A DNA stretch of 24,733 bases from a virus: IMG/VR virus record IMGVR_UViG_3300043420_000413, positions 1 through 24,733 of that record. One strand, given 5' to 3'. Under the pieces are notes generated by a model. That model did no database searches, was not told where the DNA came from, and saw only the letters and a list, made by a program, of their open reading frames with translations. Both the position numbers and the translations under genes were made by a program. Shown here in pieces: positions 374 to 22,786 of this stretch; the stretch's first letter is position 1; every line of letters starts with the position of its first letter.

Positions 374-1549
374 ATGAACGATTTCATCAAGCGGCAGTAT
401 GAGCTGCGGCAGAATGCGTGGGAGCAGGCCAAGGGTCTCCTTGACACCGCTTTCACGGAGGGCCGTGACCTGACTGCCGACGAGCAGCAGACCTACGACC
501 GCATCAACGAGGACATCGACGCACGCAACGCGACGATTGAGCGTCTTGAGGCCGACTTCGCGCGCGAGGCTCGCGCTGCGGAGCAGCGTCTCTCCGACGG
601 CCCGGTCGTCCGTGAGGAGCGTCAGAGTGACGCGGACATTCTCCGTGCGATGGCGCGCGGCGAGATTCGCGAGTACACCTTTGAGAAGCGTCAGATGACG
701 ACCAGCACCGATGCTGCCGTCGTGCCGCAGGACTTTTGGGGCATGGTGGAGTCGGAGCTGATCACGACCGGACCTGCTCTTGAGCCGGGTGTGTTCACGA
801 TTCTCCGTACCGACGGTGCTGCCCCGATCAAGATGCCGCGTCAGACCGCGTTCTCGCAGGCGACTGCGACTGCGGAGGGCGCTGTGTTCACTGCGTCGAA
901 CCCGACCACGGACTCCGTGACGATTTCGGCGTTCAAGTATGGAACTCTCGTCAGCACCAGCCGCGAGCTTCTTGAGGACGCAGGCGTGGATGTGCAGGCG
1001 TTCCTTGCCCGTCAGATTGGTGTCGCGCTTGGTACTGCCATCAACTCTGTCGTCACGCTTGGTACCGGCACGGTTGAGCCTCGCGGCATCGTCCCGAATG
1101 CTTCGCTTGGTGTGACCGGCGGCACGGGTGTGTCGGGTGCCTTCACGGCGGCGGCACTCATCTCGTTGGCCCACAGTATTGATGCCGCGTACGCCCGTAG
1201 GCCGGGGGTGGGCTTCATGCTGAACCGGAAGACGCTGGGCCAGCTCCGTGCGATTCAGGACGGAGGTGGGGCGTTCGTCTACAACCCGGTTGTCGGTGGC
1301 GCAGAGACGCTGCTCGGCTACCGCGTCATTCAGAACCCGGCGATGGTGGACACCGCAGTCAACGCGAAGAGCGTCCTGTTCGGTGACTTCTCCGCGTTCT
1401 ATGTTCGTACCGCTGGCGGTCTTGAGATCGCGAGGTCGGACGACTACGGGTTCGCGACGGACACGATTACTTGGCGTGCGAGCATCCGGCTGGACTCCGT
1501 CCTGCCAATCGACGACGCGGTCAAGTACTTTGTCGGTGGTACTGCGTAA
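374..1549 (+). CDS. major capsid protein, HK97 fold
   Basis: A 391-residue protein that would form the icosahedral shell. Residues 1 to about 75 are charged and helical with heptad-like spacing (delta-domain type, usually acting as a built-in scaffold). A linker follows, then near residue 108 the mature-type capsid domain starts (TTSTDAAVVPQDFWG and on). The E-loop region around 130-160 and the later SRELLEDAGVDVQAFLARQIG segment are typical of HK97-family capsids of siphoviruses. Total length fits an unprocessed precursor of this family. Cleavage near residues 105-112 is plausible, but no protease gene is visible in the window. The ATG at 374 has a strong ribosome binding site. The next genes are sugar-modifying enzymes, so this protein is a candidate substrate for glycosylation. 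Confidence 0.88.
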   Translation: MNDFIKRQYELRQNAWEQAKGLLDTAFTEGRDLTADEQQTYDRINEDIDARNATIERLEADFAREARAAEQRLSDGPVVREERQSDADILRAMARGEIREYTFEKRQMTTSTDAAVVPQDFWGMVESELITTGPALEPGVFTILRTDGAAPIKMPRQTAFSQATATAEGAVFTASNPTTDSVTISAFKYGTLVSTSRELLEDAGVDVQAFLARQIGVALGTAINSVVTLGTGTVEPRGIVPNASLGVTGGTGVSGAFTAAALISLAHSIDAAYARRPGVGFMLNRKTLGQLRAIQDGGGAFVYNPVVGGAETLLGYRVIQNPAMVDTAVNAKSVLFGDFSAFYVRTAGGLEIARSDDYGFATDTITWRASIRLDSVLPIDDAVKYFVGGTA

Positions 1550-1564
1550 CATCTAGCACGACCG

Positions 1565-1598
1565 CCGGGGGGTGGACAGCGCAGGGTCCACTCCCCGG
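1565..1598 (+). terminator. 12-bp GC-rich hairpin after the capsid gene
   Basis: Arms CCGGGGGGTGGA (1565-1576) and TCCACTCCCCGG (1587-1598) pair over all 12 positions, with one G-U pair, around a 10-base loop. The hairpin begins 16 bases after the capsid stop codon. No T-run follows, so this is not a classic intrinsic terminator. It could be a tail-less terminator, a partial attenuator that lowers expression of the downstream sugar genes, or a 3' stabiliser of capsid mRNA. Confidence 0.6.
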
Positions 1599-1626
1599 CA
1601 CCTGCGACCCTGCGCCGGAGGTTCCT

Positions 1627-2787
1627 GTGCGCTCTCCTGCGATCCTGTGGTGGTCGAACAATCCGACGGCACCGACGGGCTACGGCTCGCAAACGAAGAC
1701 CGTCGTCTCACGGATGGCGAAGGCAGGCCACCCGGTCGCGGTCGCATCCAACTGGGGCACCGAAGGCACGACAAGCGCGTGGCCTTCCCCGTACGGTCAA
1801 AACATCCCGATCTATCCGCGAGGCTACGACGGCTATTCGCAGGATGTCATCGTCGGTCACTACGAGGACTGGGCCGCGCATCATCCCGACATCGGGACGA
1901 CGCTGGTCACTCTCTACGATGTTTGGGTGCTGACGAACCCTCGTCTTGCAGAGCTGCCGCGCTCCATCATCTCGTGGGTGCCTATCGACCATATGCCGGT
2001 CACGAACGCGGTCGCGTCATGGTGTGCCCGTCCGAATGTCCGGCCTATCGCGATGTCCAAGTACGGGCAGGAGCAGTTGGCGCGCAAGGACATCGAATCG
2101 ACCTACATCCCTCACACGATTGAGGATGTGTTCCACTACCGGAAGGATCATGGGAACCTGATGCAGTTCCCTGACGACACTTTCGTGGTGATGATGAACG
2201 CTGCGAACAAGGGTGTCCATCCGAACCGCAAGAGGTGGAGCGAGAACCTGCTGGCCCTGTCGGTGTTCATGAAGAAGCATGAGGATGTCCGGGCGTACTT
2301 GCACACGGAGGCGCAATGTCCTGCCGGGATTGACCTGATGATGTTGGCGCAGGCAGTCGGGCTGCCGTCGGATCGTCTGTCGTGGCCTGCACAGTACACC
2401 TACCGGATGGGCGGCTTCGATGAGAATGCGCTGGCGCGTCTTTACAGTCAGGCCGATGTGCTGCTTGCCGCGTCGGGCGGTGAAGGTTTCGGTATCCCGG
2501 TGATTGAGGCGATGGCGTGTGGTACTCGCACCATCGTCTCTGACTTTTCGGCGCAGCCGGAGTTGGTGAGTGCGGACTGTTACAAGGTCGATGGTCAGCC
2601 GGAGTGGAACCCGACCCAGTTGGGATTCCTGTTCACCCCACGGGTGCAGTCGATTGTCGATGCGCTGGAGGATGCGTACAGCAAGGGGAAGGTGCGTTCG
2701 CAGGCTGCGGTGTCGAAGGCCGGTGAGTACAACGCTGACCGGGTGTTCAAGCAGTCATGGAAGCCTCTGCTGAAGGAGATGGCGTGA
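1627..2787 (+). CDS. glycosyltransferase, GT-B fold, GT4-like
   Basis: A 386-residue enzyme expected to transfer a sugar from a nucleotide donor. The C-terminal half has the GT4 signature: ADVLLAASGGEGFGIPVIE at about 277-294 contains the E-x7-E motif (E286, E294), followed by AMACGTRTIVSDFSAQPEL. The N-terminal half starts with a first-strand motif (AILWWSNN) and the Ser/Gly-rich TGYGSQT turn seen in GT-B enzymes. I chose GTG 1627 because GGAGG lies at 1617-1621. The open frame continues upstream to 1471, but that would overlap the capsid gene and lacks a ribosome site. It is the first of four coupled sugar genes. Acceptor and donor cannot be read from the sequence; a virion protein is the likely acceptor. 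Confidence 0.85.
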   Translation: MRSPAILWWSNNPTAPTGYGSQTKTVVSRMAKAGHPVAVASNWGTEGTTSAWPSPYGQNIPIYPRGYDGYSQDVIVGHYEDWAAHHPDIGTTLVTLYDVWVLTNPRLAELPRSIISWVPIDHMPVTNAVASWCARPNVRPIAMSKYGQEQLARKDIESTYIPHTIEDVFHYRKDHGNLMQFPDDTFVVMMNAANKGVHPNRKRWSENLLALSVFMKKHEDVRAYLHTEAQCPAGIDLMMLAQAVGLPSDRLSWPAQYTYRMGGFDENALARLYSQADVLLAASGGEGFGIPVIEAMACGTRTIVSDFSAQPELVSADCYKVDGQPEWNPTQLGFLFTPRVQSIVDALEDAYSKGKVRSQAAVSKAGEYNADRVFKQSWKPLLKEMA

Positions 2788-3683
2788 ATCTTGTGACGGG
2801 TGGTCTTGGTTTCATCGGATCGTGGCTGGTCGATTCGCTTGTCGCTGACGGTGAGCCTGTCGTCATCGTCGATGATGGGCGCGGCAAGGCGACCTACAAG
2901 CCGCCTGCCGGTGTGGATGTGCTGCGGCACGACATCTCTGCGTTGGGAAGCGACCTCGGACGGCTAAATGCGGTTTGGCATCTTGCGTCGCCGGTCGGCC
3001 CGGTCGGTGTGATTGAGCAGGCCGGTCGTATCACCGGGCAGGTCATCGCCGGGACGCAGGCTGCTATCCGGTACGCGCAGCAGTCGGACTGTCCGCTCAT
3101 TCTCGTGTCCACATCGGAGGTGTATGGCGGCGGAGCTGACGGGCTGTGCGACGAGTTGATGCCGATGCTCGTGTCGTCGTGGTATTCGGCACGGGGCGAG
3201 TATCAGACGGCGAAACTCGCTGCGGAGGTGATGGCGTACAACACGGATGTCGATGTTCGCATCATCCGTCCGTTCAATGTGGCAGGGCCGCGTCAGCGTC
3301 CCGAGGGCGGTTTCGTGCTGGCACGCTGGAAGCAGCAGCATCTTCGTGGCGAACCGATCACGGTGTATGAGCCGGGGACGCAGCGCCGCGCCATGACCTC
3401 CGTGTTCGATGTTGTTGAAGGGATGCGTGTTGTCCGCGAGGAAGGCGATGTCGGCATTTGGAACATCGGCAACCCGGACAATGTGGTGACGATGCTGGAA
3501 CTTGCTGACCTGTGGGTCGATCAGACTGGCGACGAGGTCGCCATCGTGGACCCGATTTCGCTGCATGGCGGTGCGTTCCGTGAGGCTCCCGACAAGTACC
3601 CGGACGCGAGCAAGGCGATGTCGATTGGCTGGCGACCGCAGTACAGCGTCTCCGACATCATTGAGCAGGTGCTGCTCGCATGA
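2784..3683 (+). CDS. NAD-dependent sugar epimerase/dehydratase (extended SDR)
   Basis: A 299-residue extended short-chain dehydrogenase acting on a nucleotide sugar. The N-terminal Rossmann motif GGLGFIG (6-12) and an acidic pair at 30-31 (VDD) indicate NAD binding. The catalytic set is S/T near 110 (STSEVYG) and Y140-x3-K144. RPFNVAGPRQ at about 162-171 is typical of the UDP-glucuronate decarboxylase / dTDP-glucose dehydratase / epimerase group. Start GTG 2784 overlaps the previous stop as GTGA and has AAGGAG about 5 bases upstream; an in-frame ATG at 2757 would add nine residues but has no ribosome site. It probably makes or modifies the donor sugar for the adjacent transferases. The exact reaction (decarboxylase, epimerase or dehydratase) is not resolvable here. 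Confidence 0.87.
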   Translation: MNLVTGGLGFIGSWLVDSLVADGEPVVIVDDGRGKATYKPPAGVDVLRHDISALGSDLGRLNAVWHLASPVGPVGVIEQAGRITGQVIAGTQAAIRYAQQSDCPLILVSTSEVYGGGADGLCDELMPMLVSSWYSARGEYQTAKLAAEVMAYNTDVDVRIIRPFNVAGPRQRPEGGFVLARWKQQHLRGEPITVYEPGTQRRAMTSVFDVVEGMRVVREEGDVGIWNIGNPDNVVTMLELADLWVDQTGDEVAIVDPISLHGGAFREAPDKYPDASKAMSIGWRPQYSVSDIIEQVLLA

Positions 3684-4378
3684 TTCCGGTGCTGGGTGTT
3701 CCCATCCTGAACCGTGCCGACCTTGCCGCACGCATGGTGCGGTCCATCGACCATCCGGTTCGTGAGCTGGTGGTGGTGGTCAACGGCCCGGAGGACGACA
3801 TCGTTCCGGTGATGCAAGATGCAATCACCATGAATCCGAATGTGCTGTCGGTGCTGTGGTGCCGTCCCGGTTTCAACTTGGGCTGCGGCGGCTCATGGAA
3901 CTTCGTCATCCGATCGCGTCCGGCAGGACCGTGGTGGCTCATCGTCAACGCCGACATCGTGTTCGCACCGGGCGACCTTGCGATGCTTGTCGATGACATG
4001 GCTGACCACGGAGGCTTCGCGACCCTGTTTGAGTACGGGGCGTTCGCTTTGGACACGGAGGTCGTTGACCGGGTCGGCTGGTTCGACGAGCATTTCGTAC
4101 CAATGTATTTTGAGGACCGCGACTATGAGCGTCGCCTGCATCTTGCAGGCATCGTCGAACGGCACCTGCCGTCCAAGACGCTGCACGACACCTCGTCCAC
4201 GATCCATTCGGATGCGCGTCTCGCGTTGCGGAACGGTCAGACCTTCGTAGACAACGGCGACTACTTCGTCCTGAAATGGGGCAATCATCCTCGCAGCGGC
4301 GACCTTTATGAGCAGCCGTTCAACGGGGGGCCGTGCCCGGTGTCGTTGAGACAAAGGCTGGTGAGGCAGGCATGGTGA
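3680..4378 (+). CDS. glycosyltransferase, GT2-like (GT-A fold)
   Basis: A 232-residue protein with the layout of small GT2 enzymes: an N-terminal strand with PVLGVPILNR (3-12), the VVVVNGP nucleotide-binding strand (31-37), WLIVNADIVF (86-95), where NAD stands in place of the metal-binding DxD, and GWFDEHFVPMYFEDRDYERR (133-152), a hallmark of rhamnosyltransferase-type GT2 members. The ATG overlaps the epimerase stop as ATGA. It lies in the four-gene sugar cassette downstream of the capsid gene. Loss of the first Asp of DxD is common in this family and does not imply inactivity. Substrate unknown. Confidence 0.82.
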   Translation: MIPVLGVPILNRADLAARMVRSIDHPVRELVVVVNGPEDDIVPVMQDAITMNPNVLSVLWCRPGFNLGCGGSWNFVIRSRPAGPWWLIVNADIVFAPGDLAMLVDDMADHGGFATLFEYGAFALDTEVVDRVGWFDEHFVPMYFEDRDYERRLHLAGIVERHLPSKTLHDTSSTIHSDARLALRNGQTFVDNGDYFVLKWGNHPRSGDLYEQPFNGGPCPVSLRQRLVRQAW

Positions 4379-5118
4379 TTGACGGTGTGATGTGGTACAG
4401 CGAGATTGATGCGTTGGAGTTGCGGCTGCGGATGCTTGACCCGTTCGTCGATGTGTTCGTCGTCGTCGAATCAGACCTGACGCATTCGGGGCTGTTCAAG
4501 ACTTGGCGGCTGGGTGAGCATCGTGACCGTCTCGCGCCGTGGTGGGACGACATCGTTTGGGTGAAGCATCAGCAGCGCCCCCACCCGAACGCTTGGGTGC
4601 TGGAACGCGACCAGCGTCACGCAATCAAGCACGCCGTTTCCGGGCTGGCTGGCGCAGACGATGTAGTCGTCTTCTCCGATGTGGACGAGATTTGGTCGCC
4701 GTCCTGCCTGAAGGTGTGGCAGGAGCGGATCGCAGCAGCGAGCATGGATTTCCGGCTGTTCTCTGTGTATTGGCAATGGCCTGCACGGTGGCGAGGTTCC
4801 ATCGGTGGGCCGTGGAGCGTGATGGAACATAAGGATTGGAACGGGCTGCGAGACATCCGTGCTTCGATGCCGTCGGTCAAGGGCGGCTGGCATTTCTCTT
4901 GGATGGGTGGCACGGAGCAACAGGTCGCCAAGCGCGACTCGTTCGCCCACCGGGAGTTTGCCGATATCGATGTGGTGCCGTTCGCGGCGCAGGGCCGATG
5001 GTTCGACGGCACCGACCTGATTGAGACTGCCGAAGGTCTGCCTGACGAGGTGTTCATCGGGATGCCGCCTGCGTGGTATAGGACGCGCTCCGGTACGATG
5101 CCGCCTGCCGGAGGTTGA
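4372..5118 (+). CDS. glycosyltransferase family 17-like protein
   Basis: A 248-residue protein that I recognise as GT17-like. That family includes the eukaryotic beta-1,4-N-acetylglucosaminyltransferase III and many phage and bacterial relatives. Seen here: EIDALELRLRMLDPFVDVFV (11-30), VVESDLTHSG (31-40) and VVVFSDVDEIWSP (98-110), where SDVDEI is the family's probable metal/nucleotide site. The frame is open back to 4333. I prefer ATG 4372 or GTG 4375, which overlap the preceding TGA as elsewhere in this operon. It is the last gene of the sugar cassette, and the next gene follows after two bases. The bacterial members are poorly characterised, so the transferred sugar is unknown. Confidence 0.8.
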   Translation: MVIDGVMWYSEIDALELRLRMLDPFVDVFVVVESDLTHSGLFKTWRLGEHRDRLAPWWDDIVWVKHQQRPHPNAWVLERDQRHAIKHAVSGLAGADDVVVFSDVDEIWSPSCLKVWQERIAAASMDFRLFSVYWQWPARWRGSIGGPWSVMEHKDWNGLRDIRASMPSVKGGWHFSWMGGTEQQVAKRDSFAHREFADIDVVPFAAQGRWFDGTDLIETAEGLPDEVFIGMPPAWYRTRSGTMPPAGG

Positions 5119-5120
5119 CC

Positions 5121-5723
5121 GTGGCTACCTATGCGACCCTTCAAGAGCTGAAGGCGGCGTTGAACATCGCCGACGCTGTTGACGACACCCAGTTGAATGC
5201 GGCGCTGACCTCTGCGTCCGCATGGGTCGATGGGTACTGCTCACGGACCTTCGGGACCGCGTCGGGAACCGCCACCAAGGATTACGCGCCGACCTCCATG
5301 TATGCGCCGCTCTACATCGACGACGCGACCGCCATCGTTGAGGTGCGGTTGGACGACAACTGCGACGGCACCTTCGCGACGGTCCTTGGCAGCGCGAACT
5401 GGCAGACCGAACCGGTCAATCAGTATGTGGACGGGCTGGCGTATCCCATCAACCGGCTCCGTCCGATCCAAGAGGGCTACTGGCCCATGTCGGTGTTCGC
5501 CGGTCAGGCCACCGTCCGGGTGTCGGCAACCTACGGGTGGCCTGCGGTCCCGGCGGCGGTGAACAGCGCGACCATCATGCAGGCCGCACGGCTGTTCAAG
5601 CGGCTGGACGCTCCGCTTGGTGTCATGGGATTCGGTGACCTTGGGCCGGTCAGGGTGTCGCGCTACATCGACCCGGATGTTGAGGCGCTGCTCGCTCCGT
5701 ACCGTCTCCGCGCCTACCTCTGA
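5121..5723 (+). CDS. head-tail connector / adaptor (HK97 gp6-like)
   Basis: A 200-residue protein with an adaptor-like opening: YATLQELKAALNI followed by DDTQLNAALTSASAWVDGYC (about 17-36), a helical pair common in gp6/gp15-type adaptors that dock under the portal ring. The middle is beta-rich (DATAIVEVRLDDNCDG) and the C-terminus resumes helices. I chose GTG 5121 because GGAGG at 5110-5114 is six bases upstream. A TTG at 5115 abuts the ribosome site and is unlikely. In most siphoviruses this gene directly follows the capsid gene; here four sugar genes intervene, which makes the cassette look inserted. Confidence 0.7.
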   Translation: MATYATLQELKAALNIADAVDDTQLNAALTSASAWVDGYCSRTFGTASGTATKDYAPTSMYAPLYIDDATAIVEVRLDDNCDGTFATVLGSANWQTEPVNQYVDGLAYPINRLRPIQEGYWPMSVFAGQATVRVSATYGWPAVPAAVNSATIMQAARLFKRLDAPLGVMGFGDLGPVRVSRYIDPDVEALLAPYRLRAYL

Positions 5724-20866: not shown

Positions 20867-21261
20867 GCCAACTGTCGGAGCTGGCACGACGCTTCCCTGA
20901 ATCGCTCGTCAAGCAGAAGCCCGGTGGGAAGTTCGCTGCCGATTTCGTCGGGCACGCGACTATCAACGAACGGCTGCTTGAATGCGTCGGCCCTTTCTCT
21001 TGGGAGATTGTGACGACGGTGACGAACCCTGACGGGACGCTGGTCGGTTGCACCGGGCGGCTCACGGTCACCATCGACGGGCGCGAGGTCACCATCGTTG
21101 AGGCTGGCGATGTGGAGCATCCCGGCCCGAACAACGGCTCCAACCTCAAGGTCGCTGCGAGCGATGCGTTCAAGCGTGCCGCCATGAGGATCGGGCTGGG
21201 CCTGCATCTTTGGAGTCCGTCGTACTTCTTGGACAAGGCATTGGCGAAGCGTGATGGTTGA
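20863..21261 (+). CDS. Rad52-like single-strand annealing protein
   Basis: A 132-residue protein starting at GTG 20863, overlapping the exonuclease stop (GTGA). ATINERLLECVGPFSWEIVT (about 31-50), GTLVGCTGRLTVTIDG (57-72), and the late LKVAASDAFKRAAMRIGLGL (about 99-118) followed by HLW match the Rad52/Rad22-type annealase pattern, in which the SDAFKRAA segment is the best-known landmark. Expected to form rings and anneal complementary ssDNA left by the upstream exonuclease. An ATG at 20818 in the same frame would overlap the exonuclease and is rejected. It is followed without gap by the methyltransferase. Confidence 0.75.
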   Translation: MSQLSELARRFPESLVKQKPGGKFAADFVGHATINERLLECVGPFSWEIVTTVTNPDGTLVGCTGRLTVTIDGREVTIVEAGDVEHPGPNNGSNLKVAASDAFKRAAMRIGLGLHLWSPSYFLDKALAKRDG

Positions 21262-22786
21262 GGTGCTGCACGGGGACTGTGTGGAGTTGATGCGGTCCAT
21301 GCCGGACTCTTCGGTGGACGCGATCGTGACCGATCCGCCGTACGAGTTGGGGTTCATGGGCAAGGCGTGGGACGGCGCTGGCATCGCATACTCGGTGACG
21401 ATGTGGGCCGAGGCGTTGCGTGTGTTGAAGCCGGGTGGTCATCTGTTGGCGTTCGGTGGGACGCGGACCTACCACCGGATGGCGTGCGCTATCGAGGACG
21501 CCGGGTTCGAGATCAGGGACAGCATCCATTGGGTGTACGGGTCGGGGTTCCCGAAGTCGCTGGATGTGTCGAAGGCGATAGACAAGGTGAACGGCGAGGG
21601 TGGTCGTGCGCTCAAGTTCACCGGATGGATGCGGATGACAGGATTGACGGCGCGTCGCCTTGATGAGTTGACGGGTACGAACATGGGCGGGCACTACATC
21701 GCCGCGAAGTCGCAACCTGCAATTCCGACTGCTGAAATGTGGGCTGTTATCCGTCCTCATTGTGGTGAGGTGCCGGAGTGGGTGGACGAGTTAATTGCGC
21801 GTGTCGAGGCAGAGCGTGAGGTGGTGGGGCAGCGTGATGTGCCGGTCGGACATTCCTTTGCGGGTCCGGTGTATGGAGGTGATAGCAGCAGCAAGGAGAT
21901 GAACGTGACCGCGCCGGCGACGGATGAGGCTCGTCGTTGGGAGGGTTGGGGTACGGCGTTGAAGCCTGCTCATGAGCCGGTGGTGGTGGCGCGTAAGCCG
22001 TTGTCGGGGACGGTGGCGGCGAATGTGTTGGAGTGGGGGACGGGTGGGCTGAACATCGACGGCTGCCGGGTCGGGACGGACGGCGGGACGACACGCGGCG
22101 ATGGCGGTGGCAGTTTGTCGCCTCAGGGGGCTTTCACTACGGGACATGAGGTGGACAGGCTGAATGCGGGCCGTTGGCCTGCGAATGTGGTGTTCGACCG
22201 GACGGCAGGAGAAGCACTAGACCGGCAAGGCGGCGAACGACCGAGCGCAGGCGAATACACCAACAGTCTGAGCAGGCCTGAGGGTCCGTGGGCACCGTTC
22301 GGTGGGACTGCTAAGACGGGCAAAACAAGGCGCAGCAATACTTATGCGAATGAGACGGGTGGTGCGTCCCGGTTCTTCACGCAGGCTGACTGGTCTGACG
22401 ATGACTGGCCGTTCGTGTATCAGGCGAAGCCGTCACGGAAGGAACGGAACGCCGGACTCGACGGGCTGCCGAAGCAGGAAGGCGCTGGCAGTTACGAGTT
22501 CCGGCGCGATGCATCGCTGGATGGCAAGCAGACTGCACCGAAGTCCAATGTCCATCCGACCGTGAAGCCTGTCGCGCTCATGCGGCATCTTGTCCGGCTG
22601 GTCACCCCACCCGGCGGCACCGTCCTTGACCCGTTCGCAGGTTCCGGCACCACCCTCGTCGCCGCCATCCTTGAAGGGTTCAACACCATCGGCTGCGAGA
22701 TGACCGACGAGTACCTGCCGATCATCGAAGCACGGGTCGCATGGGCGCAGCAGCAGGCAGCCGCCGAACCCCCGAGACTCCTGTGA
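21254..22786 (+). CDS. orphan DNA methyltransferase, beta-class order
   Basis: A 510-residue enzyme. DPPY (27-30) is motif IV near the N-terminus, and VLDPFAGSGTTLVAAI (457-472) is motif I near the C-terminus, followed by an acidic residue at CEMTDEY. This motif order is that of beta-class MTases. DPPY favours N6-adenine over N4-cytosine but does not prove it. The long middle (about 110-430) holds the target-recognition region and SRFFTQADWS, and KPSRKERNAGLDGLP, seen in phage MTases. No restriction gene is adjacent. ATG 21254 and GTG 21251 are both usable. It probably protects phage DNA from host restriction or marks it. Confidence 0.82.
   Translation: MVEVLHGDCVELMRSMPDSSVDAIVTDPPYELGFMGKAWDGAGIAYSVTMWAEALRVLKPGGHLLAFGGTRTYHRMACAIEDAGFEIRDSIHWVYGSGFPKSLDVSKAIDKVNGEGGRALKFTGWMRMTGLTARRLDELTGTNMGGHYIAAKSQPAIPTAEMWAVIRPHCGEVPEWVDELIARVEAEREVVGQRDVPVGHSFAGPVYGGDSSSKEMNVTAPATDEARRWEGWGTALKPAHEPVVVARKPLSGTVAANVLEWGTGGLNIDGCRVGTDGGTTRGDGGGSLSPQGAFTTGHEVDRLNAGRWPANVVFDRTAGEALDRQGGERPSAGEYTNSLSRPEGPWAPFGGTAKTGKTRRSNTYANETGGASRFFTQADWSDDDWPFVYQAKPSRKERNAGLDGLPKQEGAGSYEFRRDASLDGKQTAPKSNVHPTVKPVALMRHLVRLVTPPGGTVLDPFAGSGTTLVAAILEGFNTIGCEMTDEYLPIIEARVAWAQQQAAAEPPRLL

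Follow-up and report, generated by a model that had tools for sequence, protein, structure and literature searches.

A block of four sugar-enzyme genes lies between the genes for the major capsid protein (MCP) and the head-tail adaptor in the window studied here, which is the whole of IMG/VR virus record IMGVR_UViG_3300043420_000413, a fragment of 24,733 bases. We found that this locus beside the capsid gene is a real, conserved and modular glycosylation locus. All six genes are on the + strand of the window and overlap or nearly so, in the order MCP, glycosyltransferase (GT) of type GT4, SDR sugar enzyme, GT2, GT17 and adaptor. A previous sequence-only reading of the window had proposed these four coupled sugar genes; Pfam and phrog matches confirmed them, with small corrections of gene starts. 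The co-expressed glycosylation module that it had seen there, with its own sugar-modifying enzyme and three types of transferase, is likewise well supported. With a probability of about two in three, we consider that the products of the four genes form a soluble pathway of glycan assembly, produced late together with the capsid, which glycosylates a structural protein of the phage in the host cytoplasm.

Relatives were gathered by profile searches with the adaptor, the GT4 and the MCP, which yielded some 200 IMG/VR contigs. Of the more than 500 matches to each profile, the best 80 were retained, and the counts below therefore describe the closer relatives of the window. GT4 was present in 97 of the 101 non-redundant loci with both flanks, a set including loci fetched by the GT4 profile, and was the first gene after MCP in all 97. 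Two samples were chosen without any transferase: GT4 was found inside the MCP-adaptor interval in 39 of the 42 loci selected by the adaptor, and in 32 out of 32 selected by the MCP alone. Chance placement of the cassette is excluded, because the gene order is conserved in about 100 relatives. The cassette is also less of an unusual wedge than had been supposed, since a large group of actinophages normally has this layout, and cluster J mycobacteriophages were described in 2013 as carrying a comparable insertion (PMC3706429).

The hosts of this phage group are actinobacteria, as WhiB, which marks actinobacteria and the phages that infect them, was found in 15 of the 16 larger records, and as Pontimonas phage phiPsal1 also indicates. 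The window, itself a fragment, has no WhiB. MCP relatives were found in contigs of Streptomyces, Agromyces, Galbitalea and Microbacteriaceae.

Content of the interval varied widely between loci: 42 labelled arrangements were counted among the 101, including the empty one. The genes following GT4 encode GT2, several other GT families, GT17, sugar SDRs, methyltransferases, a cytidylyltransferase and a DUF115/MptE-like family, and nearly all labelled interval genes are of these sugar-related kinds. A minority of 25 open reading frames (ORFs) had no such label, some of them resembling, by eye, homing-endonuclease-type proteins. Two relatives carry in the interval a FnlA-like UDP-GlcNAc 4,6-dehydratase (414 bits, under the equivalog cut-off) and a RmlD-like reductase, so that genes for making the donor and for transferring it share the slot. 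About ten non-redundant loci contain a GT17. Relatives depart from the window in one or two genes: locus L033 is without GT17, and locus L031 has it, with another GT replacing the SDR enzyme and the GT2.

In four of the 101 loci the site is empty and no longer than about 100 bp. It measures 88 bp in L076, L082 and L100, which are one lineage nested within the MCP tree. In L247 and L249, contigs of a Microbacteriaceae metagenome-assembled genome, 102 and 63 bp respectively separate MCP from adaptor; L246, from the same assembled genome, has GT4, DUF115 and GT2. The block is therefore dispensable, and bounded by the hairpin that follows MCP (see below) and by the adaptor. A comparison of gene order had been proposed earlier to see whether the cassette is present or absent as a block: the whole block is indeed missing in a few relatives, but most of them keep a block with different genes.

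All four enzymes of the window look functional, their motifs being intact. The GT4 (1627..2787, PF00534 2.6e-12, phrog_2170 4.8e-35) has the EX7E motif as E286-x7-E294, invariant across 33 cassette GT4s. Its structure model (pLDDT 93.8) had GT4-type GT-B enzymes as top PDB matches, the best being a chlorovirus glycosyltransferase, so that both the fold and the motif that define GT4 were found. The next enzyme (2784..3683, PF01370 2.4e-28, phrog_540 4e-36) is an SDR-type protein resembling nucleotide-sugar epimerases/dehydratases, whose nearest relative among solved structures is UDP-glucuronate decarboxylase 1 (103 bits). Alignment with human UXS1 revealed STSEVYG and YQTAK (YxxxK), that is the catalytic Thr/Ser-Glu and Tyr-x3-Lys residues looked for. 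The position that we take to be that of the catalytic arginine of UXS, the equivalent of ArnA R619, is a Phe in the SDRs of the window, of L003, L033, L166 and L174, and of Microcystis phage Mae-JY09. Because this arginine is missing, UDP-glucuronate decarboxylase/UDP-xylose synthase was rejected as the identity of the SDR enzyme. SDRs in the intervals of other loci have quite different motifs, such as ASACIYP in L067, which points to different sugars.

In the GT2 (3680..4378, PF00535 5e-6, phrog_29879 4.8e-34) the metal and acidic motifs are kept, with D92, E145/D146 and H169 conserved among 25 cassette GT2s. The GT17 (4372..5118, PF04724 2.7e-19), of about 250 residues, scored 69.9 bits against PF04724, for a cut-off of 26, and covers profile positions 74-256 out of 348. 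Its DxD(E) is at 116-119, where D116 and E119 are invariant and D118 nearly so, and GGWHxSWMG is conserved. Its model (pLDDT 91.7) is GT-A-like, so that a GT-A fold and a DxD are both present. Structure matches include many GT-A enzymes, but also nucleotidyltransferases of the same general fold, and as rank does not separate the two, this search supports the fold and not the function. By score, DxD and GGWH motifs and model, the protein resembles the eukaryotic MGAT3-type family; the other viral members that we found are only about 25-37% identical to it, and no phage record was matched in a tblastn search with the GT17 of the window. To our knowledge, bacteria do not have the acceptor of MGAT3 (a beta-1,4-GlcNAc is added to the mannose of an N-glycan), and that of the phage GT17 is therefore expected to be different. 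In other viral contigs (L010-L022), GT17 genes are often tandem pairs, each about 30% identical to that of the window. A hydropathy scan of the cassette proteins revealed no clear membrane segment.

In the pathway that we propose, the cassette enzymes would be made late in infection along with the capsid, and act in the host cytoplasm. The SDR enzyme would make a modified donor from a nucleotide sugar of the host, GT4, the probable initiator, would most likely put the first sugar on the protein, and GT2 and GT17 would lengthen or branch the glycan, whose nature would be determined by the swappable genes downstream of GT4. We infer the order of action and the sugar, as well as the acceptor: a virion protein (capsid and/or tail tube) is favoured because the enzymes are soluble and placed in the head operon, and because of published precedent. 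On these three grounds, the virion decoration put forward in the sequence-only reading stands as the best explanation, its acceptor being deduced and not observed.

Several points weigh against this interpretation. GT4 divergence tracks the whole head module, not MCP alone. A first partial correlation of 0.66 had seemed to single out MCP as the acceptor, and this was dropped once portal and protease controls were added: the partial correlations with GT4 divergence were then 0.26 for MCP and 0.30 for portal, the MCP signal being no stronger than that of portal. A second candidate signature was the protein end. Among MCPs from cassette-bearing phages, 77% end in Ser or Thr (a GGAS end for example), and tail-tube proteins of the group end in short Thr-containing tails, which fits reported C-terminal glycosylation. 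These ends are, however, shared by cassette-free relatives, including the C-terminal serine that is typical of the MCPs of these phages, so that no MCP feature marks the cassette. Finally, the proven transferases of mycobacteriophages belong to other GT families than those of the cassette.

Phage-encoded virion glycosylation is already known as a principle. In articles citing Freeman 2023 (PMC12363180, PMC11256854, PMC12619734), mycobacteriophages Che8, Corndog and Myrna are reported to use GTs that they encode themselves to glycosylate their capsid and tail tube. Like the cassette group, these are actinobacterial phages with several transferases of their own. Che8 has three adjacent GT genes, gp108-110, encoding a GT2 plus methyltransferase, a GT2-like and a GT25 type, with no GT4, unlike the cassette; they are near the right end of the genome, whereas the cassette of the window is beside the capsid gene. 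No Che8 gene was matched by the cassette profiles at E 1e-5, and the Pfam families differ. By analogy, the cassette may work like virion glycosylation of the mycobacteriophage type, in that the GTs are phage-encoded, and not by homology.

Phages of cluster J (Thibault, Omega and others) have an insertion at the same junction, between the capsid and connector genes, to which the authors of that study assigned no definite role (PMC3706429). It contains several GTs and methyltransferases, and one cassette GT family has a homologue in Thibault gp14 (E 7e-30), but it comprises 8-10 genes, including a kinase gene and protease-like ones, with no GT4-first core. The nearest cultured relative is phiPsal1 (MG835450), a phage now reported as lost, with MCP, GT4, methyltransferase, GT2 and adaptor. 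Order is the same as in the window, and identity is 38% for MCP, 38.5% for GT4 and 39.6% for GT2, but the methyltransferase replaces the SDR enzyme and GT17 is absent. This methyltransferase (L006:8162-8680) is on the minus strand, within an otherwise + strand head operon. Microcystis phage Mae-JY09 (PP395641) has a GT4 and an SDR related to those of the window in its MCP-adaptor slot, but its MCP was absent among the matches listed for the MCP of the window. In Synechococcus phage S-CBS4, GT4, GT2 and methyltransferase genes are also adjacent, but between portal and protease.

Three other roles were weighed. The enzymes might alter the host cell surface during infection, for instance to keep out superinfecting phages or to free progeny from receptors. 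Such a role has been put forward for phage GTs, and is one of two suggested for those of freshwater actinophages E7 and F5 (PMC10202952). The hosts are rich in cell-wall GTs (PMC6106888). We nevertheless hold it unlikely, given cassette proteins devoid of membrane segments, annotations that include neither a flippase nor a polyprenyl-linked enzyme, and a cassette constantly within the head operon. Seroconversion genes, moreover, are usually prophage-borne, whereas phiPsal1 is considered lytic by its authors. Even less credit can be given to a tolerant landing site, where the cargo would merely happen to be sugar enzymes with no virion-tied role: the constant first place of GT4 and the near-exclusive sugar content are unexpected for random cargo, although the several kinds of genes at the cluster J junction and the 25 ORFs without sugar label, homing-endonuclease-like ones among them, would suit such a site. 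Glycosylation of phage DNA, as a guard against nucleases, is the least probable, even though phage GTs can hypermodify DNA (Pyle 2024 as cited in PMC12619734) and such a role was put forward for freshwater actinophages (PMC10202952): the cassette is in the structural and not the replication region, and PF00303 (thymidylate synthase/hydroxymethylase family) was found in 0 of 16 records, most of them fragments but with the complete phiPsal1 genome included, in a search whose control was positive in 9 of 14, bearing in mind that phages may modify DNA by routes other than PF00303. Both DNA and host-wall modification are disfavoured.

A very stable hairpin was found directly 3' of the MCP stop in 137 of 140 loci, with a mean z of -4.4 compared to mononucleotide shuffles, whereas the regions following four other genes gave about -0.4 to -0.6. 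That of the window (1564..1599, + strand; z -4.37 compared to dinucleotide shuffles) has a 14-bp stem, a loop AGCGCAGG at 1578-1585 and a free energy of -32.2 kcal/mol. Rfam gave no match for the hairpin at gathering level, and weak matches (E about 0.3-5; traJ_5, microRNAs and others) were taken as chance. Stems vary between loci, but G[CT][AG]GG is present in the apical part of 110 of the 137 hairpins (18% in shuffles). A complement of the loop is often present downstream, at the ribosome-binding site or start codon of GT4. The proposed partner in the window is CCTGCGC (1609..1615, + strand), a 7-nt perfect complement of the loop sitting immediately 5' of the GT4 Shine-Dalgarno (1617-1621; GTG start at 1627). 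Of the loci whose motif has a C in second place, 64 have CCTGC as partner and 0 have CCTAC; of those with a T, 12 have CCTAC and 1 has CCTGC. Neither is present in 33 loci. Once the set is thinned at 70% MCP identity, these counts become 19, 0, 2 and 0, with neither partner in 5, and independent compensatory cases are therefore few.

In the empty-site loci L247, L249, L076 and L100, a hairpin with a CG[CT]AGG loop is retained within the 100 nt 3' of the MCP stop, and the downstream complement is, by eye, seemingly missing. The hairpin would belong to the capsid gene, as a terminator or processing signal, and start regions of GT4 may have evolved to pair with its loop, which would lower GT4 output; with such pairing, much less GT4 than capsid protein would probably be made. 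A sole role as intrinsic terminator was rejected: it suits the loci with a T-run at the hairpin, such as L006 and L046, but leaves the conserved loop unexplained. We consider the hairpin a candidate for a new regulatory RNA element.

The presence at one spot of differing enzyme mixes in about 100 related actinophages suggests particles that are sugar-coated with rapidly changing glycans. More tentatively, and as a possibility that we rate below even odds, this would be a hypervariable capsid-glycan locus of aquatic actinophages, comparable to bacterial O-antigen or capsule loci: with GT4 as the fixed initiator and swappable sugar genes at one site, surface glycans would differ within a lineage, and loop pairing of the hairpin with the GT4 start region would set GT4 translation. 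If true, a large aquatic phage group builds diverse particle glycans by a modular route, and the type of glycan may switch between close relatives. The diversity of bacterial surface polysaccharides would then have its equivalent among phages, with possible effects on adsorption, on the stability of particles and on their losses in water. In metagenomes, such loci can be spotted simply by their fixed gene order. In the searchable literature, to which most subscription journals do not belong, there seems to be no earlier description of this architecture with GT4 first, of how widely it is spread among actinophages, of its turnover of genes or of the RNA element linked to it.

The flanks of the cassette in the window are MCP (374..1549, + strand), of the HK97 fold family (PF05065 7.8e-51; phrog_10 9.4e-61), and the adaptor (5121..5723, + strand; phrog_442 3e-22; PF05135 6.2e-7). 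Three starts were corrected from Shine-Dalgarno spacing and from relatives. For the SDR gene we favour GTG 2784, where GTGA overlaps the GT4 stop, 3' of AAGGAG, for GT17 ATG 4372, and for the adaptor GTG 5121, with GGAGG about six bases upstream; these ORFs are also open from ATG 2757, GTG 4333 and TTG 5115, respectively. A nucleotide search with the first 8 kb of the window found no match among phage records. Tail terminator, tail tube and tape measure genes come after the adaptor. Further downstream, a 511-aa ORF (21251-22786) is similar to phage DNA methyltransferases; its residues 1-505 span only about 230 positions of the phrog_67 profile, which suggests that it carries a long insertion.

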